From Spirochaetaceae bacterium (GTDB lineage: Bacteria; Spirochaetota; Spirochaetia; SZUA-6; Bin103), in the NCBI GenBank assembly GCA_028821475.1, contig JAPPGB010000076.1, positions 1 to 64,000 on the forward strand: a stretch of DNA of 64,000 nt, read 5' to 3'. The number at the start of each line of letters is the position of its first letter. Positions within the stretch are counted from its first letter, which is position 1. Position numbers and translations under genes: made by a program. Under the pieces are notes generated by a model. That model was given only the letters and a program-made list of their open reading frames with translations. It was not told the origin of the DNA and made no database searches. Of the stretch, positions 16,956-51,179 are shown piece after piece.

Positions 16956-16980
16956 GAACATCACTCGTAGTGTGTGTACC

Positions 16981-18826: not shown

Positions 18827-18931
18827 CCCCTGGGCCGGGCGCGAGGCGGAGCAGATTCGGATTTCCGCGAAGCGCTGGCGGAACTTCTCCCTGAAGCTCG
18901 CGCACGCCATGCAGAGACAGTTGCCGCCCAA

Positions 18932-20738: not shown

Positions 20739-20842
20739 TGCCAGGCGACTGGCTCAAGCGGTACCGATTCGCAGTGGCCGCCTGCGCGGCGAACACTTGG
20801 CGAACACCAGCGCCGGGTTGACTCGTATGTAATGTGTGGACC

Positions 20843-22688
20843 GCGCTACGACACCGCGTCGCAGTACGCCAGCTCCCAGCCGTGGAAGACCAGCGCCAGC
20901 CCCGTGAACCGCACGCCCGGAAACTGCCGCGCCAGCCGTTCGTCCGCCAGGTAGCGCGCGAGTTGGGTAGTCGCGTCGCGCACCGCCGCCGCCACGGCGT
21001 CCCGGTCCGCCGACTCGCTGCGCTTCAGATACTTCAGCTCGATCAGGTAGCCGTGCCGCAGGTGCGGGAAGCGCGCCAGCAACGGCTCCAGGCTGATGTC
21101 CGCATGTCCCTTCCCCAACTCCGCCTCGGACCGGAACACGTAGAAGTCGGTCACGCTCAGGTACGCCGCCAGGAACCCTTGGACCACCTTCTCGCCGGCG
21201 ATGTAGTCGCGAATCCCGGTCTGCGCGGCGATCGCTTCGGCCAGGAACGCGAATGGCGGCCGCCACTCGCCCTGGTTGGCCATGCGCATCATGAGCTGCT
21301 CGAAACGGTACAGATCGACCCTGAACACCGCCACGTCGCGGTAGCCGTCGCGCAGGTAGCCGTACATGAGCTGCTTCACGGTCTGATTGGGAATCGCCAG
21401 CCGCGGCATTCCGTCCACCACTCCACGGATGCTCAGCAGCCCGAAGTAGTGCAGCAGCGACAGGAAGTTCTGCCGGTCGGTGAGCTGCTGCAGGGGGAAG
21501 CTCGGCTGGATGTGCGGCAGGTCCTTCCGCCCCTCGCCGATGACCTCGCGCAGCAGGTCGAAGTTGCCGTTGAGCTGCCGGCCCACCACCAGCAGGTGGC
21601 GCAGCTTGCCGTAGTCGATGCGCACGTTGGTGTCGATCAGGTACCTCGGCACGCCCCGGTTCGGCATCGAGTGCTTCAGGTAGTAGAGCACCATGTCGGT
21701 GTTGTACACGTCGGTGTCGGCGTCCTCGGCGGCGAACCGGTAGCCGTTGTACCACTCGCCCATCAGGGCCATGGCTTCATCCACGTCCTGGTCGAGTACG
21801 CCGTGCTCCCGGTAGGTCTCCACCAAGCGCCGCACCTCCGCCTCGGTGAAGCCGACCATCTCGTTGAAGTCGGGTTCCAGGCTGATGTTGGTGCCGATGT
21901 TGAACCCGCTGGTGACGTCGTCCATGGTCACCGGCGACACCCCGGTGATGAACAGGCGGTCGATGCCGCCGCCGCTACGCGCCGTGCCGCCCTTGAGGGT
22001 GGCGAAGAAGTTGCGGTAGAAGCCGCCGCCGTGCGTGAAGTCCTCGTACGCCTGGGCGCCGTGGCGCGCCAGCACGGTGTTGGCGAAGTTGTCGTACTCG
22101 TCGATCAGCACGTACAGCGGGATGCCGTGGTCGCCCGCGTACCGGAACAACATGCTCAGCTTGGTGGCGATGGAGGGCGGCGCCAGGATGCGCTGCCGCG
22201 CCGTTTCGGGAAACAGGTCGGGATGGCGCTCCAGCGTTCCCCGGAGCTCTATCATGCAGTAGGTTTCGAACTCCCGCTCCAGGGTTTCGAGCTTGTCGTT
22301 GACCATGGAGAAGTCGAAGCGCAGCACGACGTAGCGGTGGTGCTCCGCGGTCGGGTTGCGTCCGATGTCGGTACCGGCGAAGGTGGCGTCGAACTCGTGG
22401 CCCCACCAGCGGTCGTAGTAGTTCTCCAGCAGCGACACCCACAGCGACTTGCCGAACCGCCGCGGGCGGATCAGGAAGACGTAGTCCTCCCGTTCCAGGC
22501 GCCGCAGGAAGCGGGTCTTGTCGACGTACAGCCAGCGGTTCAGGCGGATGCGCCGGAAGTCGGACTGGCCGTAGGGAATGCGCGGGTGTATCGGAACCAC
22601 GTCCACGGCCGCAACCTTGCGCCGGTCACTCTATCGCGGCCCGGTGCAGGCACTCAACGGCTCAACTCCGCCCGCGGCAGGCAAGTGT
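20843..22688. repeat. 1.85-kb direct repeat, copy 2
   Basis: Direct copy of 16981-18826, displaced by 3862 bp. The two copies bracket vapBC, the broken phosphotransferase and the LuxR fragment. Confidence 0.9.
20846..22606 (-). CDS. AAA-ATPase-like / DUF1703 PD-(D/E)XK protein, copy 2
   Basis: Identical in protein sequence to the product at 16984-18744: Walker A RPRRFGKS, Walker B LIDEYDNF and C-terminal nuclease motifs GHADI and IELKYLK. The lack of synonymous divergence means a very recent duplication, gene conversion, or an assembly artefact. Upstream the copies diverge about 80 bp beyond the start. Confidence 0.88.
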   Translation of the reverse strand: MDVVPIHPRIPYGQSDFRRIRLNRWLYVDKTRFLRRLEREDYVFLIRPRRFGKSLWVSLLENYYDRWWGHEFDATFAGTDIGRNPTAEHHRYVVLRFDFSMVNDKLETLEREFETYCMIELRGTLERHPDLFPETARQRILAPPSIATKLSMLFRYAGDHGIPLYVLIDEYDNFANTVLARHGAQAYEDFTHGGGFYRNFFATLKGGTARSGGGIDRLFITGVSPVTMDDVTSGFNIGTNISLEPDFNEMVGFTEAEVRRLVETYREHGVLDQDVDEAMALMGEWYNGYRFAAEDADTDVYNTDMVLYYLKHSMPNRGVPRYLIDTNVRIDYGKLRHLLVVGRQLNGNFDLLREVIGEGRKDLPHIQPSFPLQQLTDRQNFLSLLHYFGLLSIRGVVDGMPRLAIPNQTVKQLMYGYLRDGYRDVAVFRVDLYRFEQLMMRMANQGEWRPPFAFLAEAIAAQTGIRDYIAGEKVVQGFLAAYLSVTDFYVFRSEAELGKGHADISLEPLLARFPHLRHGYLIELKYLKRSESADRDAVAAAVRDATTQLARYLADERLARQFPGVRFTGLALVFHGWELAYCDAVS

Positions 22689-22769
22689 CCCCGCCACCCG
22701 CTCGACGGTCGCCACGGCAGATTGAGGGATGACGGTTTCGTTGTATTGGTGCGCTTCGGTACGCGGCCA

Positions 22770-23861: not shown

Positions 23862-24170
23862 CATCAACACCGGTCACCGCGTGACAACCGGCCGCGTTCG
23901 GCGCCGGGCGGCCACCGGCGATGCGTGCACGGATGCGCCGGGTCACCGTGCCGCCGCCGATTCGGGGTGGCCCGCGTCGGGCTGCGCCGTTCCACCCCCG
24001 TCCTGCTCGCACTCCGGCGCTCCAAGCGCAGCGTCAATATCTCACCCCGCCGCATCCCGGAGTACATGGCAACCCAGAAGATCGAGCGGATGCCCGGGTC
24101 CTTCACCACCGCTTCGATGCCGTGCTGCCAGTAGGGCAGGGCTTCCGCCGGCGATGAGATCACCCGCCGC
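23862..24170 (-). pseudogene. integrase fragment with internal deletion
   Basis: On the minus strand 24170-24030 encodes IVRRVISSPAEALPYWQHG and YSGMRRGEILTLR, matching the middle of the full integrase at 51915-53207. It then jumps to the 3' end of that gene (about 23945-24025) and the flanking TCAACACCGG sequence. The segment with the catalytic His, Arg and Tyr is deleted. Confidence 0.8.
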
Positions 24171-24341
24171 ACGATCGAGAGCTTCTTGCGATACAAAGAC
24201 TTAGATGCCACCAGCAACCAGCAACGCGCCCTTTCTGTTGTCTGGGGCAGCCCGAGTCCCTTGTCTTGTCGCTTGACTGTGCAGCAATAGGCAGCCTACG
24301 TTACCGTTCTCATCGGTATTCCAGTAGGTACCACCATTGCG

Positions 24342-30531: not shown

Positions 30532-30659
30532 TCGCGCCGCTTTGCGTCGTTGCACGCCCGCCGGCCGAGGTTGGTTGCAGGATAGCTGCCGTGTAGCGTG
30601 GGAGATGGTAGTTCCGTTCCGAGTGCGCCCCTGGTGCGGAAGGGAGGAGTGGTGCCGCC

Positions 30660-31575
30660 GGTCTTGCTGCGCCGCCCTTCGAGGATCGACGCAAGCTGCC
30701 GGGTAATCGGCAGTCCGAGCGGGCGTACCGGACTTGGTGTGCGGCACGTGCACGACCCCGCGCGCAAGGTCCACGCGCTCCCAGCGCAGCGTCAATATCT
30801 CTCCCCGCCGCATCCCGGAGTACATCGCAACCCAGAAGATGGAGCGGGTGGCCGGGTCCTTCACCACCGCCTCGATGCCGCGCTGCCAGTAGGGCAGGGC
30901 TTCCGCGGGCGACGAGATCACCCGCCGCACGATCGGGTTGAACCGCCCGCCCGCCGCCAGCCACAGGTCGACCGGGTTGCGCAGCCCCTCGTGATCGACG
31001 CAGGCGCGGCGGTAGATGGAGCGCAGGAGCGAGATCACCTGGTTCCCGATCGCCCAGCCGTGGTTGCTGGTGAGCAGGGTGAAGCGCGCCTCCACCTCGC
31101 GGCGCTCGATGGCATTCAGCGGGCGCGACACCCAGTCGGCGAGATAGTGCTCGATGGCGCGGCGGTAGGCGTCACTGGTCTTCGTCGAGCGGAAGGACTT
31201 GGCGCCCAGGTAATCCTGGAACGCCTCGCACAGGGTCGGCATGCTCCGCGCCCGCGCGCGCTTGTCCGCCGGATCCTGGCCGTCGGCCACCTTGCCGAGC
31301 ATCCTGTGGGCGATCCGGCGTGCCTGGTCGGGCGTCACGGGGCCGAAGCGCCCGATGACCACGCGCTTGTTGGGCGCCTTGCGTCCGCCGTCGCCGGCGC
31401 GGTAGTTGACGATGAACGACTTGAGCCCCGAGGGCTGGACGCGAACCCCGAACCCGATGAGCTTGTCGTCCCATGCGATGAACGCCTTGTCGGACGGCTC
31501 CAGCGCCGCGACGTTCCGTTTGTTCAGCGTCAGCCTGAGCCGCGCGGCACGCTTCGCGGTCGTCAATCCATCCAT
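30660..31575 (-). pseudogene. tyrosine integrase, 3'-truncated
   Basis: Starts at ATG 31575 (MDGLTTAKRAARLRLTLNKR) and follows the full integrase at 51915-53207 through the arm-binding domain, SAM-like core and catalytic SGMRRGEILTLRW. After HTKSGTP the frame shifts, and soon afterwards (about 30660) similarity stops, so the catalytic HxxR, second His and Tyr are missing. It is fused in frame upstream to the IS630 remnant, which creates a 606-codon chimera that is not a real protein. Confidence 0.85.
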
Positions 31576-31589
31576 CCTGACACGATGGA

Positions 31590-32545: not shown

Positions 32546-32815
32546 TCTGTCCTCCCAGCGGGTTGAGAGTGCCGGATATGGAACCACGAGACAGCCGAGA
32601 AGGTCAATGCTCTGTACGTAACTGTATTTGTTCGTCGATGTCACAAGCTGCCGTCGTGGGCAGTGGATAGAGAGGCGAACAAGACCATGGCTGACCGAGG
32701 AACGCCCGCTAGACCCCTGCCGGCGGAGTTTCGGCATCGTTCGGATCGCTCAACGTTGCGTCCCGTTAGGGTACCATGGTAGGATTATGCCGTTCAGCCA
32801 CGGAATCGACAGCAA

Positions 32816-33679
32816 ATGCGTCCTGCGACCGACAGCCAGCCGCCAACACTAGATGACTACGAACAACGTATTTCTGATTACCTCGGCTTGACCGACGAGC
32901 AAGTCGGACTCATTTCGAGACGCCTTTCATCTGACAGCCGCGCACGCTTCGACACTGCTGCAGTTGATCTAGGCTATGCAACAAATAAGGCGATTCGGCG
33001 TTGTCGCCGAGCCTATAAACTTGACGCGAAACTTGCCACATGTCTTCAGCTTACTGAGCACGAGAAAGCAGATATCGAGAGTTATCGACGCTCGGAACGA
33101 ACTGGAAACTTTGGAGAAATTGCCGTACAGCTAGGTATTGTTCCTCAATTTAAAATCGATCAGTGTTTAAGGCGATTCTCCCTTTTTAGATTGCGTCAAA
33201 TCAACCCAGCGTGGGTTGCGGTTGGTTTGCAGATCGTAATTTTGATAATCCAAATCCTTTTTCCTTCCATCTATCTCAATGAGGTGACGATAGACCCAGA
33301 GAGTGGAGCTACTGACCAGGCTGCATATCTTTCGGTGGAAACTCTTCCTGGTAAGGCTATCGAAGAATCGGACTATACACTCGAAGACAAAAATGAGATC
33401 AGTGACATCAATCATCACTGGCTCTTGGGTGTTACGTACAATGGACAGAGTGAGGTTGCTTCTGGGTGTCTGACGGGGAACATCGAGTATCTCGGAGGAT
33501 TACAAAAACCGCTCTCTCAGAAATTGTCTCTTCATCCAGACCATCCTAAAACAGCGTACGGATTGACTGCCACTACAAACTCTCCGATTTGTTTGGCGAG
33601 ATTGGCCTTCTATCGGGATTGTAGCAGTGCAGTACCTGACCCGGTGGAGATCGCCTATGATTGTAAGGAACAGCTATGA
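32816..33679 (+). CDS. single-span membrane protein of unknown function
   Basis: 287 residues. An N-terminal helical region of about 135 residues (DYLGLTDEQVGLISRRL, repeated DLGYATNK / QLGIVPQFK segments) is followed by one membrane span (PAWVAVGLQIVILIIQILF) and an extracytoplasmic C-terminal part with several cysteines. GC is clearly lower than in the flanks. Its stop overlaps the next ATG (ATGA), so it forms an operon with the secreted PPC-type protein. No family recognised. Confidence 0.65.
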   Translation: MRPATDSQPPTLDDYEQRISDYLGLTDEQVGLISRRLSSDSRARFDTAAVDLGYATNKAIRRCRRAYKLDAKLATCLQLTEHEKADIESYRRSERTGNFGEIAVQLGIVPQFKIDQCLRRFSLFRLRQINPAWVAVGLQIVILIIQILFPSIYLNEVTIDPESGATDQAAYLSVETLPGKAIEESDYTLEDKNEISDINHHWLLGVTYNGQSEVASGCLTGNIEYLGGLQKPLSQKLSLHPDHPKTAYGLTATTNSPICLARLAFYRDCSSAVPDPVEIAYDCKEQL

Positions 33680-34833
33680 GAAGCACAATTTTCGCTGCAG
33701 TGATCGCGATGCTCTCGTCTATACCCGTTGATTCGCAGTTGCTGATCGGCTATGAACCTGGACGAGAACAAGAGACAGAGGTCGCCCATTTCCTCTCCAA
33801 TGAAGGTGGTTTCGAAGCAGTAATTGCGGAGTTGCAATCTTCCACACTTACTGTCAGAGTTTCCGGTTCTCTGACCGCTTATCAAGTGATTGAGATTGCT
33901 GGACTCGTGGCCGACTACTATGAGTCGGCATCCGCTACAAGAGATAGCGGTTCGAGTATTAAGGAACTACATATACTGTGGGAAAAGAGACAAGAAGTAG
34001 ATGGCTTAGTCTTCTACGAGGGTGGAATTGCGTTCGAGGAGTACATACTTAATCTGTTCGCTAAGGAGGCAGATCCTAGCAACGTAATACGAGCATTTTC
34101 CGGTAGCGTTTATTCCATTGTGCCCGAAGATCAGTTCGAGGCAGAAGGGGATAACGCCCGCGATTCGGCCACCGAATCAGTGAGGGAGATTCATACGATC
34201 AGTATAGACGACACTGATTGGTTCAAACAGAGGATTCGGAGATCAGGAAAGTACGTCTTTGAGACGCGGTCTGTGGCCGGACAGCCGTACGTCGACACCC
34301 AGCTCGACGTGATAATCACTGACGGATATACCAAGAGCGACGACGACGGCGGCGCGGGTCTATACTCTAGAGTCGAAGTGTGTATCGAGCGTGGGCAAAA
34401 CGTCTTTGCGAGAGTCTCCGGGTTCTTCAGAGACGAGGGTTACTACGAGCTTGACGTTAGTCGTGCCGAGGGGAATAGTTGTGCGCCAGAAGGAGATGAA
34501 GCAGACAACCAGGGTAATAGTGTTCCGATTGGAGTTGGGTCCAAGACATTGGGCAGCCTACACTCAAAGACCGATGTTGACTGGTTCATACTTGAAGGAC
34601 TAACTCAGGGGGGTAACTATCAGATATCCCTCGACGGCGCGGATGTGGAAGTCAGTGGTATTCTACACCCTGGTCCAGGTGAATCCGAAAGTGCGGAGGG
34701 AGTTCGTCTCAAGTCGGGCGAGGGCATAGACTTCAAGTTGACCTCGTCAGGTCCGGTGTACTTGGAGATCTCTGGGAGTGGTGCTACTGAATACACGGTG
34801 GAATTGAAGGACTTCGAGCTGTACGAGTTGTGA
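33676..34833 (+). CDS. secreted protein with two PPC-like domains
   Basis: 385 residues with a signal peptide (MRSTIFAAVIAMLSSIPVDS). The first 140 residues are unknown. Two beta-sandwich segments resemble bacterial pre-peptidase C-terminal domains: IDDTDWFKQRIRRSGKYVFE at about 175-280 and SKTDVDWFILEGLTQGGNY at about 295-380. Low GC. Operonic with the membrane protein upstream, so they may form a membrane-anchored secreted complex; this is inferred from overlap only. Confidence 0.68.
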   Translation: MRSTIFAAVIAMLSSIPVDSQLLIGYEPGREQETEVAHFLSNEGGFEAVIAELQSSTLTVRVSGSLTAYQVIEIAGLVADYYESASATRDSGSSIKELHILWEKRQEVDGLVFYEGGIAFEEYILNLFAKEADPSNVIRAFSGSVYSIVPEDQFEAEGDNARDSATESVREIHTISIDDTDWFKQRIRRSGKYVFETRSVAGQPYVDTQLDVIITDGYTKSDDDGGAGLYSRVEVCIERGQNVFARVSGFFRDEGYYELDVSRAEGNSCAPEGDEADNQGNSVPIGVGSKTLGSLHSKTDVDWFILEGLTQGGNYQISLDGADVEVSGILHPGPGESESAEGVRLKSGEGIDFKLTSSGPVYLEISGSGATEYTVELKDFELYEL

Positions 34834-35359
34834 CCCGGGGCACGTAAGCTATTCGGACCGGATCCTTCCTCCACGGTTCAATGCGTGTGTAAACAGGTGA
34901 TCTCAGCACGGGTATGGGACGAGTTGGCGGAGTGGACGACGGCGCGCCTCCTTCTTAGTTATTGCGGCAGATGCTAGCCCAAGTTGCGCACTTTCTGACG
35001 TAAACTGTTTTTGCCACACGATTTGACATTTCTTTTGTCACTACAATCGATTCCTCCCCGGAGGCGGCGGGGTAGCCGCTATCCGCAACGTCCGGTAGAA
35101 CTTGCGATGCTCCGGCTCCGGCTGCGACGGTCGCCGCAGGCGGAGTACCGTCTCGTCCGTGCACCCGTGCAGTGACGATGGCGTAGGCGGAGAAGTGATA
35201 GGGCCGCAAAGTGTGAAGCCCGCAGCAGGCGAATGCTGCGGGCTTGGGTTAATCGAAGCCGTTGCGTCAACCCCCGGAAGAGGGTTCCGGCTCCCGTATC
35301 GCTGTCTGCTGCATCTTGAATGGCGTGCCGGGTCAAGATAGCGTTCGCGGGGCAAAGTC
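34834..35359. other. intergenic stretch with one strong hairpin
   Basis: No coding frame here has a start site or motif I can support. Apart from the hairpin at 35216-35245 I see only scattered short repeats. Confidence 0.5.
35216..35245. terminator. strong hairpin, possible terminator
   Basis: AAGCCCGCAGCA (35216-35227) pairs perfectly over 12 bp with TGCTGCGGGCTT (35234-35245), loop GGCGAA. The following T content is low (TGGGTT), so efficiency is uncertain. Its A-rich left side also allows minus-strand use. Confidence 0.55.
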
Positions 35360-37748
35360 ATGACAAACGAGGGCGAATGCCGACGAGCGGCGCGCGAGGG
35401 CGCCGCGCAACGGGACACGCTTCGAGGTGTGGAGTCGGCGCCGCGGGAGGCGCCGTGGCTGCTGCGCTACCGGGTCGAGCTGCCGGATCCGATCGAGGGT
35501 CATGTCCGGCATCCAGCCGTGGAGGAACGGTGCGCTCTCCTGGACCGCCGCCTGACGGTGCTGCACGCCCCCGGCGGCTTCGGCAAGACGGCTCTGCTCG
35601 GCGAGCGTTGCCGCGCGCTGCGCGCACGAGGCGTGGCGGTCGCCTGGCTCTCGCTCGACGAGGAGGACGGACGGGGAGCGGTGGCGGCCTACCTCGCCCT
35701 GGCCTTCGAGCACGCCGGTTTGGCGCCCGTCGGCGCCGCCGGAGAACCGGGAGGGACAATCGGAGCCGGAAGCGAGGGGCCTGACCCGGCGTCGGCCAGT
35801 CAGGCCGAGTACCGCCTCAGCTTGCTGATCCGCGCATTGGAGCGGCAACGTGAGCCGTGCGTGCTGGCACTCGACGAAGTGGAGAGGCTGCGCAACCCCG
35901 AGGCAATCGCGGTGATCAACTCGTTGCTCCGGCGCGCGCCGCGCACCTTGCACGTTGGGATGGCGTTTCGCGAACGGCCTCCGGGGCTGGACATTTCGAT
36001 GTTCGTGCTCGAAGGGCGGGCAGCGACGGTGACCGCAGGCGACCTGCGGTTCTCGGCGCAGGATGTGTCTCGATTCTTCGACCGGCGGCTGTCGCGCCGC
36101 GAGTTGGCCGTCGTGGTCGCCGGCTCGGACGGCTGGCCGATCGCGCTCCGCATGTACCGCAACGCCGGACCGAGAGGGCTGGCGAGCGTCGCGGGTGACG
36201 ATGACGCGGTGGCCGGATGGATTGAAACGCGGCTGTGGCGTGGCATATCGGCGGACGACCGCGACTTCGTGCTCGACATCGCCCTGTTCGACGGTTTCGA
36301 CCCCGAGTTGATAGACGAGGTGATGGGCGCGGGCAACTCGGCCCGGCGGCTGGCCTCGCTGGGAGCGCTGGCTGGGCTGTGGTCCACCACCCGCACCGAA
36401 TCGGCGATGCGGCTGCATCCGCTTATCAAGGACCGGTGCGAGAAACAGCGGTTCGAGGAAGATCCTTCCGCTTGCCCTCGCGAAGGGGGTGGCGGACGCC
36501 CCCGACACCGACCCGTGGCTGCGCGCGTTCTTCTGCCTGGGGATGTGCATCGCATCCAACCAGTTGACGGCGTTCGACGAGTCCGTCGAGTGGGCGGAGC
36601 GTGCGCGGGCGATGTTTGAGCGCGGCTCGCCATACTTGGCTCACGTCGACTTCCAGGCCGGGTCGGTCGCCATGGCGACGGGGCGCCCTCAGGAGGCCCG
36701 TGCCTGCTACGAGCGTGCGCTGAACGTAGCGCGGGCGAGCCACCTGCGCGATGCCGGCGCGGTAATCATCGGTGAAGTGCTGGCGGCGGAGTTGGCGCTG
36801 GAACGCTCGGCGGGTATGCCCCCCGAAGGCACGCGGGTGTCACCGCGGCTGCTCGGGGAGTGCAGCGCATGGCTCGACATCTACACGGCGAGCATCTGGG
36901 TGGAGGTAGAGCGTGAGTTGGTGCGTGGCGGTCCGCAGGTGGCGCTGCGGCTTGTCGAGGACGCACTCGAATACGCGCGCCATACCGAGCGACCGCTGCT
37001 GGCACGCTGGCTAACGGCGCTGCGGGTCTCGGTGCTGCTTGCCGGCGACATGGTAGAAGCGGCGAGCCGTGCGTGGCGGTACGATCTGCTGCCCGACACG
37101 GCCGCCGCCTGTTGGATCTGCACACCCAGAGCTGGCGGGAGGTAGAGATGTTCTCCTGTACGCGAATGCGCCTGTGCATCGCGCTCGGCGACTTCGACGC
37201 CGCCCGTGAGACCGGCGCCACGCTGAATGCCGTCGCCGCTGAGCGCGGGCTGGTACGGACGCGCATGCGCGGACTGGCGCTGGCGATGGCGCTGGAGCAC
37301 CGGGCCGGCAACGGAGAGCGTGCGCGGGCGCATCTGGCGGAGTTCTTGCGGCTGTTCTCCGAGGCGGACTACGCGTGGCCGCTTGCGCGCGAGCGGACGG
37401 TTTTCCCGTGCGTTGCTCGGCGAGGTAGTGGAAAGCTCAGCGGCTGCCCCCGCCTTGGCGCAGGCAGCCACCGTCCTGCGGGCGGCCATGGATGACAACG
37501 CCGCCGCAGGTTTGGACCAGGTGCATCAGACCCTCACTCAGCGCGAGATCGACGTGTTGGAGCGACTCGAACGGTACCGGGACAAGGAGATCGCGTGGGA
37601 CCTGAAGCTGTCCTACGACGGCGTACGTTTTCGCGTGCGCAGCATCTTCGCAAAGCTCGGCGCGCGCGGACGGCTCGACGCCGTACACCGTGCGCGCGCG
37701 CGGGGCATCCTGCCGCCCGCCGACGACGCGGCGGCGACCGACTCGTAG
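35360..37748 (+). pseudogene. MalT-type LuxR-family ATPase regulator, frameshifted
   Basis: The start (MTNEGECRR) leads into VLHAPGGFGKTALLGERCRA (Walker A), CVLALDEVERL (Walker B) and winged-helix-like ISADDRDFVLDIALF, LHPLIKDRCEKQRFEED. The product then continues in a second frame from about 36470 (ADAPDTDPWLRAFFCLG, TPR-like repeats), a third from about 37090 (LLDLHTQSWREVEMF) and a fourth from about 37400, ending in the LuxR HTH LTQREIDVLERLERYRDKEI and DGVRFRVRSIFAKLGARGRL. A few hundred residues between the first two parts also appear deleted. Intact relatives are about 850-900-residue signal-responsive activators. Confidence 0.85.
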
Positions 37749-38407: not shown

Positions 38408-38815
38408 ATGCAGCACATACTGATCGACGAGATGACCGATTCCTGGACGCGCGAAGCATCGGCGAAGTCTCACACCCCTGGGATCATGGAACTGATACGC
38501 CGCGCCCCCTGGCGCGATGCGGTTACCTACCGGGATACTTGGCCGCACGAGTACGTCGTGGTCAAGAAGGACCGTCAAGAGGAACTGCTGGCGGCGTTCT
38601 GCGCACGGATCGCGCAGGGAGAGGGCGTGGAATGCTCGTTCTTCCACCAGAAGCGGACGTATCTGTTTCTAGGTGAGTACAAGTACTGGACGATGACGGA
38701 CTGCCCGGACATAGACCTGGAAGCGGATGACTATGTGCTCAACCGTTCATTACTGTACCGGGACCGCCGTGACTTCGTGATGAGGCGCGGGGATATAGGT
38801 AGACGAGAGGAGTAG
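38408..38815 (+). CDS. hypothetical protein preceding a DUF4268 gene
   Basis: 135 residues, soluble. Core segments are HEYVVVKKDRQEELLAAFCA and LFLGEYKYWTMTDCPDIDLE, ending RDFVMRRGDIGRREE. It lies 7 bp before the DUF4268 gene and has AGGAG near its end that can serve that gene, so the two are probably co-transcribed. The family is unnamed to me; the pairing hints at a restriction-type partner but there is no direct proof. Confidence 0.6.
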   Translation: MQHILIDEMTDSWTREASAKSHTPGIMELIRRAPWRDAVTYRDTWPHEYVVVKKDRQEELLAAFCARIAQGEGVECSFFHQKRTYLFLGEYKYWTMTDCPDIDLEADDYVLNRSLLYRDRRDFVMRRGDIGRREE

Positions 38816-38822
38816 CCGACAA

Positions 38823-39795
38823 ATGACTACACCGGAAGAAGGAATGCAGTGCGTCGATGTCCACAAGAAGTGGAAGCACGAGGCCTTGGACTTCACTCCA
38901 TGGCTCGCTGAAAACCTGGGTATGTTGAGCGATGCGCTTGGAGTGAGGCTGGAACTCGATCAGACGGAGAAGCCCGTAGGACCGTTCTCCTGCGACATCC
39001 TGGCCAGAGAGGTTGAGTCCGGTGTGATGGTCGCTATCGAGAACCAGTTGGAGACGAGTGACCATAGCCACCTGGGGCAGCTGCTCACGTACGCAGCTGG
39101 GCTGGAAGCACGAGTCTCGGTCTGGGTTGCGCCCGCGTTCTTCTACGAACACGCGGAGGCTCTACATCGGCTCAATGAGTGGACAGGCGATAGGCACCGG
39201 TTCTACGGCGTCGAGGTAATGGTGTTGAATACCGGCAACTCGCTGAAGCCGCGTCTCTGCCCGGTAGTGACTCCGGGCGGCTGGAACAAGGATCTCACGT
39301 TGCCACAGGGAGCGGTGGATCCAGGCAAAAAGAAGTTCGATGACTTCTTCCAGCCACTTGTCGAGAAACTGCTCGGGGATGGCTTTGCAGACAGAGCAAT
39401 CAAGAGATTCGGCAGCACCGACCGGCAATTCGCGTCCTGCCTCGACGCAAGCATAGGGTATAGAGTGTCTCTTGAGGGCAAGAACGATGCTTGGGTAACC
39501 CTGCACATTCAAGACGGAGACAAGGAACTAACCAAGCTGGCTTTCTGTGGCCTGATGAAAGAAAGGGAATCCATCGAAGCGTGCATCCCCTGACCAGGAG
39601 TGGGACTGGCGCAGCAACAACCCTCACGCGTTCTCCAGCATCAGCTTACGAAGAGATGGCTCTATCGATGATCCGCCGGAGAAGCTGAAGGAGACTAAAC
39701 AGTGGATGCTCGAAAACCTGCGCAGGTTCAAGGGTATCTTTGACCAACGTGTGGCAGACATACTGAAGAAGTTGCGAGCCAACAGCGAAGGATAG
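38823..39795 (+). pseudogene. DUF4268 PD-(D/E)XK-like protein, frameshifted near the 3' end
   Basis: The first 256 codons carry LGMLSDALGVRLEL then FSCDILAREVESGVMVAIEN and the QLETSDHSHLGQLLTYAAG block, the nuclease-like core (D, E-x-N variant) of DUF4268 proteins often found near restriction systems. The frame stops after IEACIP, but the next frame continues with DQEWDWRSNNPHAFSS, WMLENLRRFKGIFDQRV and a stop at 39795, the normal C-terminus. Removing one C from the CCCC run near 39590 restores one frame of about 323 residues. This could be a real indel or a sequencing error. Confidence 0.75.
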
Positions 39796-40073: not shown

Positions 40074-41093
40074 ATGATGGTGGCCGTCATGGCGGACTTG
40101 ATAGCGGGCGAGCGGGTCAAGCGGAATCTGACCGGAATCAGCCCACGGGCGTGGGAGCATCCGGCTGACAGGGCGGCCCTCGCGACGTTGAAGAAGTTGC
40201 CTGGTCTTGCAGAATTGATTCGGTGGGTAGTCGGCGTTACGACCGAACGATCGGTGCGCCTGCTTCACCTCGCGTCGGCGGTGCGCATTTCGGAGCGCCA
40301 GTTCCCGCGGCTCAACGGACTGTTCATTCAGGCGTGTATGCGCTTGGATGTTTCCCGCAGACCGGAGCTGTTCGTCGCCCAGAGCCCGTTTCTTAACGGC
40401 GGAGTATATGGAGTCAAAGAGCCGTTCGTGGTCATCAATTCGGCTCTGGTGCAAGCGCTGGACGATGAGGAGATGATCGCCGTCCTGGGTCATGAGCTAG
40501 GTCATTGCTGCAGTGGTCACGCGCTGTACAAGACGCTTCTTTGGCTGCTGACAAGTGTCTCGCTATCTGCTATTCCCCTGGGAGAGCTCGCGTTGCGAGG
40601 CGTAGCAGCGGCCTTACGCGAGTGGGACCGCAAAAGCGAACTGAGCGCGGACCGTGCCGGTCTCCTGGCCAGCCAGAACCCGGAAGCATGCAACACGATC
40701 CTGATGAAGCTCGCCGGGGGGACAGACACCTCGCAGATGCAGATCGGTGAGTTCCTGCAACAAGCGGGAGACTACGAGGCTCGAAACGATCTGTTGGATG
40801 GCGTACACAAACTCCTGAACCTGCTGCGTCAGCCCCACCCGTTTCCCGTATTGCGGCTCTCGGAACTGAAGGTGTGGACAGACAGCGGAGCCTACCAGCG
40901 GATCCTGGACGGCGTGTATCCGCGCCGGACCGATGGCGATACTCGTCCGGCCGACGACTTGCGGGAAGCCGGGACCAATTATCGCCAGTCGTTCCGCGAC
41001 AACGATGACCCTCTTGGCCAAGTTGCCAATAGTGTGTTGGACGGCCTGGAGGGGGCCGCGAACAAGGTCAAAGAAATCTTCAAGGGGCAGTGA
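40074..41093 (+). CDS. M48-family zinc metallopeptidase
   Basis: 339 residues. The zinc motif HELGH lies in IAVLGHELGHCCSGHALY and the third ligand in EWDRKSELSADRAGLLAS, the standard M48 arrangement. A hydrophobic segment (LWLLTSVSLSAIPLGELAL) separates them and may associate with the membrane; there is no signal peptide. M48 enzymes handle damaged or prenylated proteins; the C-terminal 100 residues here are not family-typical. Several ATGs (40074, 40077, 40089) are possible starts. The 280 bp before it show no supportable gene. Confidence 0.85.
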   Translation: MMVAVMADLIAGERVKRNLTGISPRAWEHPADRAALATLKKLPGLAELIRWVVGVTTERSVRLLHLASAVRISERQFPRLNGLFIQACMRLDVSRRPELFVAQSPFLNGGVYGVKEPFVVINSALVQALDDEEMIAVLGHELGHCCSGHALYKTLLWLLTSVSLSAIPLGELALRGVAAALREWDRKSELSADRAGLLASQNPEACNTILMKLAGGTDTSQMQIGEFLQQAGDYEARNDLLDGVHKLLNLLRQPHPFPVLRLSELKVWTDSGAYQRILDGVYPRRTDGDTRPADDLREAGTNYRQSFRDNDDPLGQVANSVLDGLEGAANKVKEIFKGQ

Positions 41094-43000: not shown

Positions 43001-43116
43001 CGGCCGCCGAATCGGGATGAGCGGTGGATGAGCCGGCATGAATGTTGCGCCAGCCGGAAGCTCGGGTATACTCCGAGAGTGGTCAAAGTGAGCCGGTGCG
43101 CGCAGGAGGTGCCGAA

Positions 43117-43722
43117 ATGTCGATATCTGCACAGAGGTCAGGCCGGAGTGAGGAATTGGCCCGTGAGGCCACTGTTGCGGAGGAGCCGATCGCTGAGGTC
43201 GTAGTCAATCGGGAATACGACGCTGATGCTACGCACAAGTTCGTGGACCGTAAGGTGTGGCAAGGGTTGGTGAAGAGCGACGAGGACGTGGAGTACCTCT
43301 ACCGCGTCGGAAGACGCTTTCTCTTCTGGCAAAACCTGTCGAACCTGTTGCAAGTGATCGGTGCGACCACCGTAGCGGCCATGATTCTTGCGCATGGACC
43401 AATGCCGTATACCGCGGCGATGAGCGCGGTCGTGGGCGCGGTAGCCCTCTTGGCGATTCTGTTTCGGTTTTCCGAGAAGCATGCGGCCGCGGTGGCCATG
43501 GAGGGTTCTTGCAGGTCCATGTCAAGGGACTGGCGCAAGCTGTGGGAAGCGCTCGGCGAGGTAGACGATCGGACAGCCTTGGCGCGAGCACATGAGTTGG
43601 AGGAGAAGACGGACGTGGTCACCGCCGAGCAGGTGCAGAAACTTGGAAACGTGAAGGAGCGGTTGCAACGAAAGGCGGTCAGGTACACTCATCTACGGAT
43701 ACGGCAGGAGTTCGGCGGGTAG
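43117..43722 (+). CDS. 2TM protein, SLATT-like architecture, copy A
   Basis: 201 residues from ATG 43117 with AGGAGG 7 nt upstream. A soluble N-terminus (DADATHKFVDRKVWQGLVKS) leads to two close membrane spans (about 78-93 and 99-117: VIGATTVAAMILAHG, MSAVVGAVALLAILF) and a C-terminal helical part (RDWRKLWEALGEVDDRTALA). This is the shape of SLATT-type 2TM effectors of nucleotide-based defence systems, but no SMODS or SLOG partner is present and the match is only architectural. Confidence 0.65.
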   Translation: MSISAQRSGRSEELAREATVAEEPIAEVVVNREYDADATHKFVDRKVWQGLVKSDEDVEYLYRVGRRFLFWQNLSNLLQVIGATTVAAMILAHGPMPYTAAMSAVVGAVALLAILFRFSEKHAAAVAMEGSCRSMSRDWRKLWEALGEVDDRTALARAHELEEKTDVVTAEQVQKLGNVKERLQRKAVRYTHLRIRQEFGG

Positions 43723-43750
43723 GGATGGCGGATCGCACAAGGGGCGCGCC

Positions 43751-43909
43751 TCAGCCAATCCCGATACCGCCGCCACCTCGACCGCCACATAGAGAACCGC
43801 CCACCCGGCCGCCGCCACCGCAGTCGCGACCGCCCCAGTCGGAGTAGTCGGCACGGCATCCGGTACCGCGAAGGGGTGCCCGGAAGGGTGAAGACTGCTC
43901 GATGATCAC
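43751..43909 (-). CDS. Gly/Cys-rich small ORF, copy A
   Basis: 52 codons from GTG 43909: VIIEQSSPFRAPLRGTGCRA, YSDWGGRDCGGGG, ending GGGGIGIG. Support for coding comes from copy B, where an 18-bp insertion keeps the frame and only adds six residues, while a 1-bp change falls just beyond the stop. No family recognised. Confidence 0.4.
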   Translation of the reverse strand: MIIEQSSPFRAPLRGTGCRADYSDWGGRDCGGGGRVGGSLCGGRGGGGIGIG

Positions 43910-44006
43910 CGTGCCGCCGACGCATGGTAGTCAGACGGCCAATTACCGGCCGCTGGCGAATACTTGCGTATGACTGCGGCAATGCCGCATATTGGAGGGG
44001 GCAACG

Positions 44007-44335
44007 ATGCAGGTCTTCTCCACGAGCACCTACGAGCGTGCCATTCGCAAGCTGCTCGGAGAAGAGGCCCGCAGGGAAATGGAGGACTCGATCGCGGCTG
44101 CCCCGATGTAGCACCGGTCATCCGGGGCACTGGCGGCATCCGTAAGCTGCGATGGGCCGGTTCCGGTCGTGGGAAGCGAGGGGGCATCCGCGCCGTCTTC
44201 TATCAGGCTGGCCCCGACGCCATCTACTTGCTGACAGCCTATGCGAAGGCGGATCGCGATGACCTGACCCCGGCGGACACCAAGGCATTGACGCGTCTGG
44301 TTGCCGCTATCAAGAAGGAGTACCAGGGAAAGTGA
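44007..44335 (+). pseudogene. RelE/HigB-type toxin, frameshifted, copy A
   Basis: ATG 44007 with GGAGGGG upstream gives MQVFSTSTYERAIRKLLGEE then EDSIAAAPM and stop at 44109. The family sequence resumes in the -1 frame: PDVAPVIRGTGGIRKLRWAG, KRGGIRAVFY, LLTAYAKADRDDLTP to TGA at 44335. Adding one C to the CCCC run at about 44101 restores a protein of exactly family length (about 109 residues). Both copies carry the same lesion, so it predates the duplication. Confidence 0.82.
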
Positions 44336-44715
44336 CGATAGAACGCACCGACCTCGGATGTGAGATCGAAACGGCTCTGGGCGAGGTGCTCGCCCATGTT
44401 CGCGGCGAGACGGGTCTGTCGTGTCGGATCGTCGACGATCCCGCCGCCAGCCGGATTGTCGCGCTCCGCAGGCGGTTGCGGCTGAGCCGGCAGAAGTTCG
44501 CTGATCGTTTCGGTCTCGATGTGAGGGCTGTTCAGGAATGGGAACAGGGGCGGCGCGTTCCCGATCGGGCAGCCCGTGTGCTGCTGACCGTCATTGATCA
44601 TGACCCTGAGGCTGTGATCAGGGCATTGGACGAGGATGGCGGCCGACGAGTTGATGGCGGGCTGGAGGGAACGCCTCGAAGCGACCGCGCGATCCCGCAC
44701 AGCTCGCCAGGCTGA
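44332..44715 (+). CDS. higA: HigA/XRE-type antitoxin, copy A
   Basis: 127 residues from GTG 44332, overlapping the toxin stop (GTGA). IVALRRRLRLSRQKFADRFG then LDVRAVQEWEQGRRVPDRAA and VLLTVIDHDPEAVIRAL are typical of HigA-like antitoxins. After RALDEDGG the C-terminus (RRVDGGLEGTPRSDRA) comes from fusion with the out-of-frame start of the small basic gene. With the toxin broken, the antitoxin may now serve as a solitary regulator or immunity factor. Confidence 0.82.
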   Translation: MTIERTDLGCEIETALGEVLAHVRGETGLSCRIVDDPAASRIVALRRRLRLSRQKFADRFGLDVRAVQEWEQGRRVPDRAARVLLTVIDHDPEAVIRALDEDGGRRVDGGLEGTPRSDRAIPHSSPG

Positions 44716-44724
44716 TTGGTCGAC

Positions 44725-44829
44725 ATGGCCAGCGGCGACGTTCCCAACGACAAGGACCAGGCGCTCCGGGCGCTGGCCGAGCGCGACCGGCGTAAGGCCG
44801 CGGCGACGCGCCAAGCCAAGAGATCGTGA
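44725..44829 (+). CDS. truncated small basic protein, copy A
   Basis: 34 residues from ATG 44725 (MASGDVPNDKDQALRALAER), matching the end of 26043-26210. The RDPAQLAK part is out of frame because of an inserted T at about 44714. It overlaps the following GTG by 4 bp. Confidence 0.45.
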   Translation: MASGDVPNDKDQALRALAERDRRKAAATRQAKRS

Positions 44830-45098
44830 GTGCCGAAGCTGTCGCCATCGTGGGCGCCGCTGTCGGCATGCTGGCCGTACTGGTCCCGCTCTTGCTGACG
44901 CTGGCCGCCGGCATCCGGCGCGACCTTGACCAGGTACGCGCCGACGTGGCCGAAGTGCGCCGCGACCTGCAAGCCCTCACCGCCCGCGTTGACTCGCTGG
45001 CCGAGCGCGTTGCCCGGATCGAGGGCGCGTTGACCGGCCCGTGGCGCCCGGCGAACGGCACGCGGGCGAGCACCCAGGGGACGTCGTCGGCCGGCTGA
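44826..45098 (+). CDS. small membrane-anchored coiled-coil protein, GALTGPWRP family, copy A
   Basis: 90 residues from GTG 44826, the same as the gene at 26207 except in the last few residues (GTRASTQGTSSAG). One membrane span, a coiled coil and the ARIEGALTGPWRPANGT tail. Confidence 0.7.
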   Translation: MSAEAVAIVGAAVGMLAVLVPLLLTLAAGIRRDLDQVRADVAEVRRDLQALTARVDSLAERVARIEGALTGPWRPANGTRASTQGTSSAG

Positions 45099-45195
45099 CG
45101 CTCGCAGACTTGTGCACGCTCGAAACCTGCCGCAACGTGTGAGCCTGAACCGCCTGCCGATTCGAGAAGCGCTGCCTCATGCTGCAGGTACGAAA

Positions 45196-45396
45196 TCAAC
45201 CCGATACACCGAACTCGATCTTGACCTGCTCCCAGGGAATCCACTCTGCGTCCTGCAGTGCTTCATAGATCGCTTTGAGGTCGTCGTGTTGTTCAAGCAA
45301 CTCGACGAGCTCGTCGTAGAGATCGATAGGCAGGGCGACGGCTACGCGGTTCTCCCAGGCGGCGAGGATCGAAGCCGGAACGCTGCCGCGGCGGCT
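45196..45396 (-). pseudogene. RelB/Phd-like antitoxin fragment, copy A
   Basis: An open minus-strand frame without a start codon reads SILAAWENRVAVALPIDLYD then LVELLEQHDDLKAIYEALQD and EWIPWEQVKIEFGVSG, the helical end and IPWEQVKxExG close of RelB/Phd-type antitoxins. The 5' end lies in another frame (VEPKEFAELK), so the gene is broken or joined to foreign sequence. Confidence 0.5.
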
Positions 45397-45460
45397 TCAG
45401 CTCGGCGAACTCCTTGGGCTCCACATTCACGCCCGCTGCCGTCGAAGTGAGGTGAGGCTG

Positions 45461-45790
45461 ATGAATGGAGCCAAGACCGCGAAGCTGGAGCGAGCCGGGT
45501 GGACGCTGGGGACTGCCAAGGAGTTCCTGGGTCTCACCGAGGAAGCGGCTCTGATAGAAATCAAACTGGCGCTCGCCAGGGGCATCAAGGAGCGACGGCT
45601 CGCCTTGCGGCTCACACAGGAAGACTTGGCAAAGCAATTGAGATCCAGTCAGTCTCGGGTCGCGAAGATGGAGGCTTCCGACGCTACGGTGTCCATGGAT
45701 TTCCTGGTGCGTTCGCTGCTCGTGCTCGGTGCGACGACTCAGGAAGTCGGACGGGTCATCGCAAGAAGTTCGGCGGCTCCGGCCGCTTGA
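45461..45790 (+). CDS. XRE-type regulator/antitoxin, copy A
   Basis: 109 residues from ATG 45461 (GAGGTGAGG upstream). Nearly identical to 26850-27182, but one Glu is missing in GLTEEAALIE and a few residues differ (RRLALRLTQEDLAK). The HTH SSQSRVAKMEASDATVSMDF is intact. Confidence 0.8.
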   Translation: MNGAKTAKLERAGWTLGTAKEFLGLTEEAALIEIKLALARGIKERRLALRLTQEDLAKQLRSSQSRVAKMEASDATVSMDFLVRSLLVLGATTQEVGRVIARSSAAPAA

Positions 45791-45889
45791 GGACGCGCCG
45801 GAGTGCGGTGGCGCTCGCTGCGCGTGCGCACCGGCTACTCCGCGGCGGCGACGATCCGGCTGCCGAATAAGCCGCGGTCGCCGACGATG

Positions 45890-46030
45890 CCTGGTGAGCA
45901 AGGACGAAGCGCGCCTCCACCTCGCGGCGCTCGATAGTATTCAGCGGGCGCGACACCCTGTCGGCGAGATAGTGTTCGATGGCGCCGCGGTAGGCGACAC
46001 CGGTCTCGTCGAGTGGTAGCGACCACGCCG
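45890..46030 (-). pseudogene. short internal integrase fragment, copy A
   Basis: Minus strand encodes LSRRQGVAP-like sequence and SRPLNTIERREVEARF, matching residues 149-164 of the full integrase. It is about 140 bp, wedged between the XRE gene and the larger integrase copy. Confidence 0.65.
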
Positions 46031-46099
46031 GTGGCGGCTACTCCATTCCATCGGCATCGGCGCGGATAGCGCCCGGCCGGCGGTCCGGACGGGCGCTTG

Positions 46100-46120
46100 T
46101 CAACACTGCGTCAACACCGG
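46100..46120. promoter_or_regulatory. paired TCAACAC heptamers beyond the integrase 3' end, copy A
   Basis: TCAACAC at 46100-46106 and 46111-46117, 11 bp apart and followed by CGG. Equivalent pairs flank the other integrase copies; arm-type recombinase sites are a possible role. Confidence 0.4.
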
Positions 46121-46192
46121 TCGCAGCGTGACAACCGGCCCGCATTCGGCACCGGGGCTGCCACCGGCGTGGCGTGCACCGGATACGCTGGC

Positions 46193-47300
46193 TTACCCTT
46201 CCGCCGCCGGGTCGGGGTGGCCGGCGTCCGGCTGCGCCGCTCGACCGTCGTCGTGCTCGCACTCCGGGCCGCCCTCCAAGATGGCGTCTATGCGATCGGC
46301 GATGAGTTGGGCCGGGCCGCGGAGCTGGCCGATGGTCCAGTCGGCGGCATAGCCCTCGGTCACGTCGGTGGGGCGGGCGTGGTTGACCAGCCGCTTGGTC
46401 AGCGAACGCGGCAGGGTCAACTCGCGGTCGGCGATCGTGATCAGGCAGTTGCGGAAGCCGTGGAACCAGAACTTCCTGCCGCCCGCGCGCGAGATGGGGG
46501 CATAGAGATGGGTGAGCACCGAGACGTGGCCCGACCGGCTCGCCGGCGACGGGAACACCCAGCCATTGCCGCCGGTCTCGCTCCGCCGCCATTCGAGGAT
46601 CGACGCAAGCTGCCGGGTGATCGGCAGTTCGAGCGGGGTACCGGTCTTGGTGTGCGGCACGTGCACGACCCCGCGCGCCAGGTCCACGCGCTCCCAGCGC
46701 AGCGTCAATATCTCTCCCCGCCGCATCCCGGAGTACATCGCAACCCAGAAGATGGAGCGGGTGGCCGGGTCCTTCACCACCGCCTCGATGCCGCGCTGCC
46801 AGTAGGGCAGGGCTTCCGCGGGCGACGAGATCACCCGCCGCACGATCGGGTTGAACCGCCCGCCCGCCGCCAGCCACAGGTCGACCGGGTTGCGCAGCCC
46901 CTCGTGATCGACGCAGGCGCGGCGGTAGATGGAGCGCAGGAGCGAGATCACCTGGTTCCCGATCGCCCAGCCGTGGTTGCTGGTGAGCAGGGTGAAGCGC
47001 GCCTCCACCTCGCGGCGCTCGATGGCATTCAGCGGGCGCGACACCCAGTCGGCGAGATAGTGCTCGATGGCGCGGCGGTAGGCGTCACTGGTCTTCGTCG
47101 AGCGGAAGGACTTGGCGCCCAGGTAATCCTGGAACGCCTCGCACAGGGTCGGCATGCTCCGCGCCCGCGCGCGCTTGTCCGCCGGATCCTGGCCGTCGGC
47201 CACCTTGCCGAGCATCCTGTGGGCGATGCGGCGGGCCTGGTCGGGCGTCACGGGGCCGAAGCGCCCGATCACCAACCGCTTGTTGGGCGCCCGGCGTCCA
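46193..47300 (-). pseudogene. tyrosine integrase lacking the N-terminal domain, copy A
   Basis: 360 codons from about 47275 match the full integrase from VVIGRFGPVTPDQARR to the end, with all catalytic residues: SGMRRGE (Arg), WFHGFRN (His/Arg), LVNHARP (His) and VTEGYAADW (Tyr). The first 70 or so residues of the arm-binding domain are replaced by unrelated sequence at about 47300, so activity is doubtful. Confidence 0.85.
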
Positions 47301-47902: not shown

Positions 47903-48101
47903 GATGGTTACGCTGCGCTTGACGGCGGCGTTCCCGGTCGAGATCGAAGTAGGTTTGGCGGCGCTCGATGGCATTCAGCGGGCGCGACACCCAGTCGGCG
48001 AGATAGTGCTCGATGGCGCGGCGGTAGGCGTGACCGGTCTTCGCCGAGCGGTAGGACTTGGAGCTCAGGAAATCCTGGAACGCCTCGCACAGCGTCGGCA
48101 T
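47903..48101 (-). pseudogene. internal integrase fragment
   Basis: Encodes MPTLCEAFQDFLSSKSYRSA then YRRAIEHYLADWVSRPLNAI, matching residues 111-158 of the full integrase with more divergence than the other fragments, so it derives from a different relative. Confidence 0.7.
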
Positions 48102-48735
48102 ATTGCTCCTCGCCCGTAGCGGCAGGTAACTACCTACGGCAGGTCCATCGGCGGGCAGCCTGCCGTGCGAAGGCCCTCGACGACATGGGGCGCCTCGCGG
48201 TTGAGCGACACCGGGTCTGATGAATCGCGAGGGAGGCGGCGATGTTCGCGGACAAGCGGTTGGCCCGCGCTTGGCCGGCGTTCCCGCCGCATGGTCGCGG
48301 CCGCGACCAGCGCGGTGCCGCTACCGGAGGCCGAGGGAGCCGAGTTGCACGGCGTCGCCCGTCGCGCCCGGAGGGGTGCAACTGCGCCTCCGTGCACTCG
48401 GCGGTGTTTGCCCACAACCTGATGAGGCTGTCTCGCCTGCTGCCATCCTGACACCGCCCTCTGGCCAAGCAAAGGGGCGCCACCGGCGTTGCGTGCACCG
48501 GGTGTGCCGGCTGACCTTCCGGCCGCCGTGTCGGGACGGCCGGCGTTGGGCTGCGCCGTTCGACCATCGTCGTGCTCGCGCTCCCGGACCGGCCTCCAAA
48601 GGTGGCCTCCAAAGGGTGGCGTCCATGCGGTCGGCGATGAGTTGGGCCGGCCCCCGAAGCCGGCCTATGGTCCAGTCGGCCGCGTAGCCCTCGGTCACGT
48701 CGGTGGGCCGGGCGTGGTGCCGGCGACGGATGAGC
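48102..48735. other. mosaic spacer with integrase 3' relic
   Basis: Bases 48125-48300 repeat 42830-43000. About 48560-48720 on the minus strand again encodes an integrase end (HARPTDVTEGYAADWTIGRL). Between them no gene is supported. Confidence 0.5.
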
Positions 48736-48816
48736 AGGCAAGAATGTTGCGCCAGCCGGAAGCTCGGGTATACTCCGAGTGGCCAATGTGAGTTGCTGCC
48801 CACAGGAGGTGCCGAA

Positions 48817-49422
48817 ATGTCGATATCTGCACAGAAGTCGGGCCGGAGTGAGGAATTGGCGCGTGAGGTCACTGTCGCGGAGGAGCCGATCGGTGAGGTC
48901 GTAGTCAGTCCGGCGGACGACGCTGATGCCACGCACAAGTTCGTCGACCGCAAGGTGTGGCAAGGCTTGGTGAAGAGCGACGAGGACGTGGAGTACCTCT
49001 ACCGCGTCGGAAGACGCTTTCTCTTCTGGCAAAACCTGTCGAACCTGTTGCAAGTGATCGGTGCGACCACCGTAGCGGCCATGATTCTTGCGCATGGACC
49101 AATGCCGTATACCGCGGCGATGAGCGCGGTCGTGGGCGCGGTAGCCCTCTTGGCGATTCTGTTTCGGTTTTCCGAGAAGCATGCGGCCGCGGTGGCCATG
49201 GAGGGTTCTTGCAGGTCCATGTCAAGGGACTGGCGCAAGCTGTGGGAAGCGCTCGGCGAGGTAGACGATCGGACAGCCTTGGCGCGAGCACATGAGTTGG
49301 AGGAGAAGACGGACGTGGTCACCGCCGAGCAGGTGCAGAAACTTGGAAACGTGAAGGAGCGGTTGCAACGAAAGGCGGTCAGGTACACTCATCTACGGAT
49401 ACGGCAGGAGTTCGGCGGGTAG
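48817..49422 (+). CDS. 2TM protein, SLATT-like architecture, copy B
   Basis: 201 residues from ATG 48817. From KFVDRKVW onward it equals copy A. The first 40 residues carry most differences (VVVSPADDADATH versus VVVNREYDADATH), as if diversity were concentrated before the membrane domain. Confidence 0.65.
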   Translation: MSISAQKSGRSEELAREVTVAEEPIGEVVVSPADDADATHKFVDRKVWQGLVKSDEDVEYLYRVGRRFLFWQNLSNLLQVIGATTVAAMILAHGPMPYTAAMSAVVGAVALLAILFRFSEKHAAAVAMEGSCRSMSRDWRKLWEALGEVDDRTALARAHELEEKTDVVTAEQVQKLGNVKERLQRKAVRYTHLRIRQEFGG

Positions 49423-49451
49423 GGATGGCGGATCGCACAAGGGGCGCGCCC

Positions 49452-49628
49452 TCAGCCAATCCCGAGGCCACCGTCCATTCCGATACCGCCGCCACCTCGA
49501 CCGCCACATAGAGAACCGCCCACCCGGCCGCCGCCACCGCAGTCGCGACCGCCCCAGTCGGAGTAGTCGGCACGGCATCCGGTACCGCGAAGGGGTGCCC
49601 GGAAGGGTGAAGACTGCTCGATGATCAC
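49452..49628 (-). CDS. Gly/Cys-rich small ORF, copy B
   Basis: 58 codons from GTG 49628. Same as copy A except for an in-frame 18-bp insertion that adds MDGGLG before the final GIG. The preserved frame argues that it is translated. Confidence 0.4.
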   Translation of the reverse strand: MIIEQSSPFRAPLRGTGCRADYSDWGGRDCGGGGRVGGSLCGGRGGGGIGMDGGLGIG

Positions 49629-49725
49629 CGTGCCGCCGACGCATGGTAGTCAGACGGCCAATTACCGGCCGCTGGCGAATACTTGCGTATGACTGCGGCA
49701 ATGCCGCATATTGGAGGGGGCAACG

Positions 49726-50054
49726 ATGCAGGTCTTCTCCACGAGCACCTACGAGCGTGCCATTCGCAAGCTGCTCGGAGAAGAGGCCCGCAGGGAAATG
49801 GAGGACTCGATCGCGGCTGCCCCGATGTAGCACCGGTCATCCGGGGCACTGGCGGCATCCGTAAGCTGCGATGGGCCGGTTCCGGTCGTGGGAAGCGAGG
49901 GGGCATCCGCGCCGTCTTCTATCAGGCTGGCCCCGACGCCATCTACTTGCTGACAGCCTATGCGAAGGCGGATCGCGATGACCTGACCCCGGCGGACACC
50001 AAGGCATTGACGCGTCTGGTTGCCGCTATCAAGAAGGAGTACCAGGGAAAGTGA
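49726..50054 (+). pseudogene. RelE/HigB-type toxin, frameshifted, copy B
   Basis: Same sequence and same missing C in the C-run as copy A: stop at 49828, toxin C-terminus (GTGGIRKLRWAG, AYAKADRDDL) in the -1 frame. Confidence 0.82.
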
Positions 50055-50434
50055 CGATAGAACGCACCGACCTCGGATGTGAGATCGAAACGGCTCTGGG
50101 CGAGGTGCTCGCCCATGTTCGCGGCGAGACGGGTCTGTCGTGTCGGATCGTCGACGATCCCGCCGCCAGCCGGATTGTCGCGCTCCGCAGGCGGTTGCGG
50201 CTGAGCCGGCAGAAGTTCGCTGATCGTTTCGGTCTCGATGTGAGGGCTGTTCAGGAATGGGAACAGGGGCGGCGCGTTCCCGATCGGGCAGCCCGTGTGC
50301 TGCTGACCGTCATTGATCATGACCCTGAGGCTGTGATCAGGGCATTGGACGAGGATGGCGGCCGACGAGTTGATGGCGGGCTGGAGGGAACGCCTCGAAG
50401 CGACCGCGCGATCCCGCACAGCTCGCCAGGCTGA
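50051..50434 (+). CDS. higA: HigA/XRE-type antitoxin, copy B
   Basis: 127 residues, identical to copy A at 44332-44715, with the same GTGA overlap and foreign C-terminal tail. Confidence 0.82.
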   Translation: MTIERTDLGCEIETALGEVLAHVRGETGLSCRIVDDPAASRIVALRRRLRLSRQKFADRFGLDVRAVQEWEQGRRVPDRAARVLLTVIDHDPEAVIRALDEDGGRRVDGGLEGTPRSDRAIPHSSPG

Positions 50435-50443
50435 TTGGTCGAC

Positions 50444-51115: not shown

Positions 51116-51179
51116 TCAGCTCGGCGAACTCCTTGGGCTCCACATTCACGCCCGCTGCCGTCGAAGTGAGGTGAGGCTG

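Follow-up and report, generated by a model that had tools for sequence, protein, structure and literature searches.

A low-GC gene pair on mobile DNA of a Spirochaetaceae bacterium: a single-span membrane protein and a predicted exported PPC-domain protein, tentatively read as a cell-envelope pair

The window analyzed here is a 64,000-nucleotide stretch (positions 1 to 64,000) of contig JAPPGB010000076.1 from a Spirochaetaceae bacterium (GenBank assembly GCA_028821475.1), and it contains two consecutive genes on the forward strand (Table 1). The ATGA overlap of the two frames proposed by the initial annotation is present, and directly 5′ of the gene 2 ATG the sequence reads AAGGA, a purine-rich, ribosome-site-like stretch. 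The low GC content attributed to both genes was likewise borne out (0.48 for gene 1 and 0.51 for gene 2); third-position GC is 0.44 and 0.53, respectively, with most neighbors at approximately 0.65–0.7, and the interval 33001–34000 is the GC minimum (0.465) among 64 one-kilobase segments. In this low GC the two genes agree with each other, which sets them apart as a single unit. The open frames run to 298 codons for gene 1 and 388 codons for gene 2, and because both exceed the longest stop-free run found in 2000 dinucleotide shuffles of positions 32701–34950 (290 codons, with a median of 123), they are real genes rather than chance frames.

Table 1. Coordinates of the gene pair and of the features within its two proteins
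Feature	Position	Strand	Extent	Basis or description
Gene 1	32816–33679	+	287 aa	Single-pass membrane protein, predicted N-in/C-out
Gene 1 repeat R1	32861–33019	+	Residues ~16–68	Repeat alignment; A4 alignment
Gene 1 repeat R2	33023–33181	+	Residues ~70–122	Repeat alignment; includes 24-residue motif-like stretch
Gene 1 membrane span	33206–33271	+	Residues ~131–152	Hydropathy
Gene 1 outer domain	33272–33676	+	~135 residues	Sequence; four Cys
Gene 2	33676–34833	+	385 aa	Exported protein (predicted); start overlaps gene 1 stop, ATGA
Gene 2 signal peptide (predicted)	33676–33735	+	Residues ~1–20	Hydropathy; cleavage site by eye
Gene 2 N-terminal domain	33736–34125	+	Residues ~21–150	Mixed alpha/beta in low-confidence model
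Gene 2 PPC domain 1	34168–34470	+	Residues ~165–265	Clear
Gene 2 PPC domain 2	34528–34830	+	Residues ~285–385	Weak

Hydropathy analysis of gene 1 gives a single strong span, with its peak window at residues 134–152. Basic residues precede this span, so the N-terminal part is probably cytoplasmic and the C-terminal part probably outside. The inner part, which is soluble, consists of two repeats of ~52 residues each, whose local alignment score of 46 was reached in 0 of 2000 shuffles (mean 20.8, s.d. 4.0). The layout first ascribed to this protein, in which repeats are followed by a span and a cysteine-containing outer part, thus holds, except that cysteines also occur in the inner part (residues 63, 76, and 117) as well as in the outer part (218, 259, 269, and 283). 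A single-sequence structure model reached a mean pLDDT of 42, with just residues ~71–120 fairly confident and helical, and this low-confidence model returned nothing at E 0.001 or better in a fold search. No Pfam or PADLOC family matched gene 1 at E 1. In the PDB, dynein heavy chains matched its sequence at E 0.35 and 1.1, which we set aside as chance.

Gene 1 was found in its own genome only, both among 148 relative genomes and among 394 genomes of the class, where two false matches were discarded: one (in G252) arises from reading past the stop at the end of an outer-membrane gene, and the other (in G345) lies at the beginning of a multi-span protein that has nothing to do with gene 1. By our own reading of the translations, the former is TolC-like and the latter a sensor. 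The outer domain alone was likewise confined to its own genome among 373 genomes of the phylum, and an alignment of the repeats (A4) gave weak, near-threshold matches in G324 and G560 (E ~0.0095). Short exact peptide patterns from gene 1 found nothing in a contig collection of 84,980 species or in viral contigs, searches that, with such patterns, are sensitive to close relatives only. Nothing was found in phages, and the single plasmid match, from Agrobacterium (E 0.7), is a chance one, with a LacI-type regulator annotated on the opposite strand.

The export predicted for the gene 2 product is supported by its hydropathy, which gives an N-terminal hydrophobic stretch; a lipobox cysteine is absent, the first cysteine being at residue 236. 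The PPC label given to this protein also stands. A home-made HMM, built from nine segments cut by eye from the proteins of four relatives, matches residues 150–265, with the domain itself at 165–265 (E 3e-12 in the full-length protein), and also residues 265–385 (E 7e-4); the best of 1000 shuffles gave E 0.5. The two PPC halves show a marginal likeness to each other, with 26 of 2000 shuffles scoring as high. Pfam’s own PF04151 model did not report gene 2; it matched all four of the PPC proteins from relatives that were scanned. A protein search with gene 2 found PPC proteins in 8 of the 148 relative genomes, its own included (best foreign E 5e-7), and all foreign matches fall within residues 145–381. 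A single-sequence structure model (mean pLDDT 49) gave mixed beta-sandwich matches in a fold search, including the collagen-binding domains of ColG/ColH (1nqd, 2o8o, and 3jqw) and Tk-SP (3afg); the six best E-values belonged to other proteins at a TM of at most 0.28, and the model is too poor for these matches to carry weight.

Gene 2 resembles the PPC-repeat exported proteins (PF04151) in having a signal peptide, an N-terminal region without an assigned family, and PPC domains in tandem; the stretches D-x-D-W-F and DDDGG are shared as well. It differs from them in that no protease domain was recognized, its N-terminal domain is unmatched in any of the PPC-repeat proteins found, and an overlapping membrane-protein gene precedes it. 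This N-terminal domain gave no match in the 84,980-species contig collection, and among the 394 class genomes it was found in its own genome, with near-threshold matches in G065 (E 0.002) and G322 (E 0.007). Whole gene 2 was absent from the viral contigs, plasmids, and phages searched, and it matched none of the PADLOC defense models at E 1. Within the reach of these sequence searches, the gene pair is an orphan.

The pair is surrounded by integrase and insertion sequence (IS) fragments, and to its left lie a fragment with a helix-turn-helix of the transposase type and the reading frame of a tyrosine integrase. Integrase pieces recur: a search gave 14 matches, all on this contig, including the query itself and one piece of a MalT-type gene. 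With the copies confined to this contig, the arrangement suggests that insertions occurred repeatedly at a single hotspot. To the right of the pair is the MalT/LuxR-type gene (35360–37748, + strand), which is broken over three frames, whereas in the same-genus genome G002 the MalT-type gene is intact as one 942-aa frame. The two versions align in two blocks at 74–78% identity that nearly abut in the window and are ~440 bases apart in G002; relative to G002, ~425 bases are missing from the window’s gene. Upstream (5′) of this intact copy, the sequence in G002 is unrelated apart from a short segment resembling the window’s integrase region, and the pair is absent; neither G001 nor G002, both of the same genus, has gene 1 or gene 2. 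The initial annotation had proposed recent acquisition, and the base composition, the absence from these two genomes, and the different DNA beside the MalT-type gene of G002 support this. In this one comparison, acquisition in the lineage of the window and loss in the others would look alike; the composition favors acquisition. Nothing was found that could mark the boundary of an insertion, whether a tRNA, an Rfam family between positions 32000 and 36000, or a convincing direct repeat on the flanks.

Partial copies of the tyrosine integrase region lie at 24017–24177, 30653–31580, 46567–47299, 47958–48116, 52289–53216, 56855–57025, and 62482–62637 of the window and at 79253–80168 of the contig. 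Two longer segments are also duplicated in the window: one of 4.3 kb (43026–47299 and 48728–53021, 97.6% identity) and one of 1.86 kb (16967–18830 and 20829–22692, 99.7%), the latter encoding an AAA-ATPase_like/PDDEXK_9 protein. As for the host, a high-GC spirochete is suggested by what the relatives contain and by an SSB match to Treponema bryantii (E 8e-25), the best E-value among the eight plasmid matches listed out of thousands.

We tentatively favor, at a probability of roughly 0.35, the reading of this pair as a laterally acquired cargo operon that encodes a cell-envelope pair with a role in signaling or anchoring. The gene 2 product would be exported and would use its two PPC beta-sandwiches, together with the N-terminal domain, to bind a ligand or surface polymer beyond the inner membrane. 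Gene 1 would be its membrane partner, with the cysteine-containing outer domain docking the exported protein and the duplicated helical inner part coupling this docking to a cytoplasmic partner or signal. The signal could travel inward, with gene 1 acting as a sensor, or outward, with the inner part controlling the outer. A sensor–receptor pair, as was suggested at the outset, is plausible; the contact between the two proteins, signaling through gene 1, and the kind of ligand are inferred. Single-span proteins that connect an inner receptor-like part with an outer partner are known from inside-out systems of the LapD/LapG type. Gene 1 as proposed would likewise be a one-span link from an inner part to an outer partner, but the GGDEF/EAL, HAMP, and protease domains of those systems were not recognized in the gene pair.

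This envelope-pair reading draws on the overlapping frames with their ribosome-site-like stretch, the internal repeat of gene 1, and the tandem PPC domains of gene 2, together with the common low GC, the absence from the same-genus genomes, and the other arrangement beside the G002 MalT-type gene. Several results count against it. Scans of the pair’s stretch for promoters and terminators found neither above chance, profile searches recognized no effector or output domain in the pair, the searches found no homologue in which adjacency could be compared, and the structure models are of low confidence.

It is somewhat unlikely, in our estimate, that the two are instead cargo genes with no functional relation, on one transcript simply through having arrived together; gene 2 would then be a PPC adhesin or binding protein of the usual kind and gene 1 an orphan membrane protein. 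The four PPC loci of relatives that were compared, out of ten fetched and as short stretches, lack a gene 1-like neighbor and gene 1 itself has no relatives that we could find, both of which speak for unrelated cargo, whereas the ATGA overlap and matched composition weakly favor co-evolution as a unit.

A further alternative, which we regard as unlikely, is that gene 1 is an inside-out regulator, in which degenerate MshEN/GSPII repeats bind a cytoplasmic ligand or partner and control the display or release of the PPC protein. As described, the c-di-GMP-binding MshEN domain comprises two 24-residue motifs, each with RLG and a closing Q, joined by a 5-residue linker (PMC5013675). When gene 1 is compared with a relaxed version of that motif, the stretch of R2 at residue 98 misses one defined position and that of R1 at residue 44 misses two; a stretch with at most one mismatch arose in 67 of 20,000 shuffles of residues 1–130. 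However, the gene 1 copies are 54 residues apart rather than 29, the closing Gln is replaced by Tyr/Phe, and one Gly (in the first copy) is Asp. Among NCBIfam models at E 5, gene 1 matched EpsG alone, over that model’s N-terminal part and far short of threshold (E 0.13, residues 77–120), which would fit such a regulator; PF05157 was matched neither by the whole cytoplasmic part nor by single repeats at E 10.

Profile comparisons of the repeats with this fold gave a divided picture. The PF05157 loci fetched first belong, by our own reading, to a type that lacks both motifs, making a test on them uninformative, and canonical MshEN sequences were therefore used instead. The resulting alignment (n = 21) consists of E. 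coli K-12 NfrB and 20 of 25 loci fetched from relatives in the phylum with an NfrB query. In an hhalign comparison in which the two gene 1 repeats were set against this alignment trimmed to its first part, the two aligned in matching register with a score of 20.4, which none of 300 column shuffles reached, but the probability was just 22.6%, and 2.7% against the uncut alignment. An hmmsearch was not significant: 82 of 2000 shuffles equaled or outscored gene 1. Direct alignment of residues 1–130 with NfrB gave a score of 38 (12 of 500 shuffles as high), and with HofB, which is without the motif, 285 of 500 shuffles were as high. Gene 1 would share duplicated helical hairpins with the MshEN/GSPII domain (PF05157; MshE, PilB/PilF, and NfrB), to which hhalign aligns it weakly in the matching register, and it differs from that domain in the lack of a profile match, in its motif spacing, and in the missing key Gln. 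Given the spacing and the missing closing Gln, we do not file gene 1 as a member. Its repeats may serve as a helical module resembling GSPII; we do not expect them to bind c-di-GMP in the ordinary way.

That the pair is a decaying leftover, whose frames are whole but serve no function today and lie stranded amid broken mobile elements, seems quite improbable to us: the adjoining MalT-type gene is broken and shortened relative to G002 and integrase fragments lie around the pair, but neither frame is interrupted, and gene 1 has kept its span and gene 2 its signal peptide and PPC motifs. Most doubtful of all is a horizontally moving inside-out switch, in which a degenerate GSPII-type nucleotide receptor with one span and a disulfide-stabilized outer domain would govern the co-encoded exported PPC protein.

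Were such a switch real, a GSPII-like receptor would be acting in a role without an attached ATPase or glycosyltransferase. If, more generally, the two proteins cooperate, they would form a compact two-gene envelope module on mobile DNA, with gene 1 as the founding member of its family within the reach of the searches made here. For now, the locus chiefly illustrates orphan cargo at an integration hotspot.

Other genes in the window include a 765-aa subtilase (PF00082; 27309–29606, − strand), with a long, unassigned N-terminal part in which an HE-type metalloprotease-like stretch can be seen by eye, and a Peptidase_M48 family protein (40074–41093, + strand). The gene at 38823–39593 (+ strand) is a strong PADLOC match to the candidate defense family PDC-S11 (E 1e-61) and is preceded by a small, unassigned gene at 38408–38815. 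At 53386–54765 (+ strand), a hydrophobic N-terminus is followed by a collagen-like repeat (PF01391).
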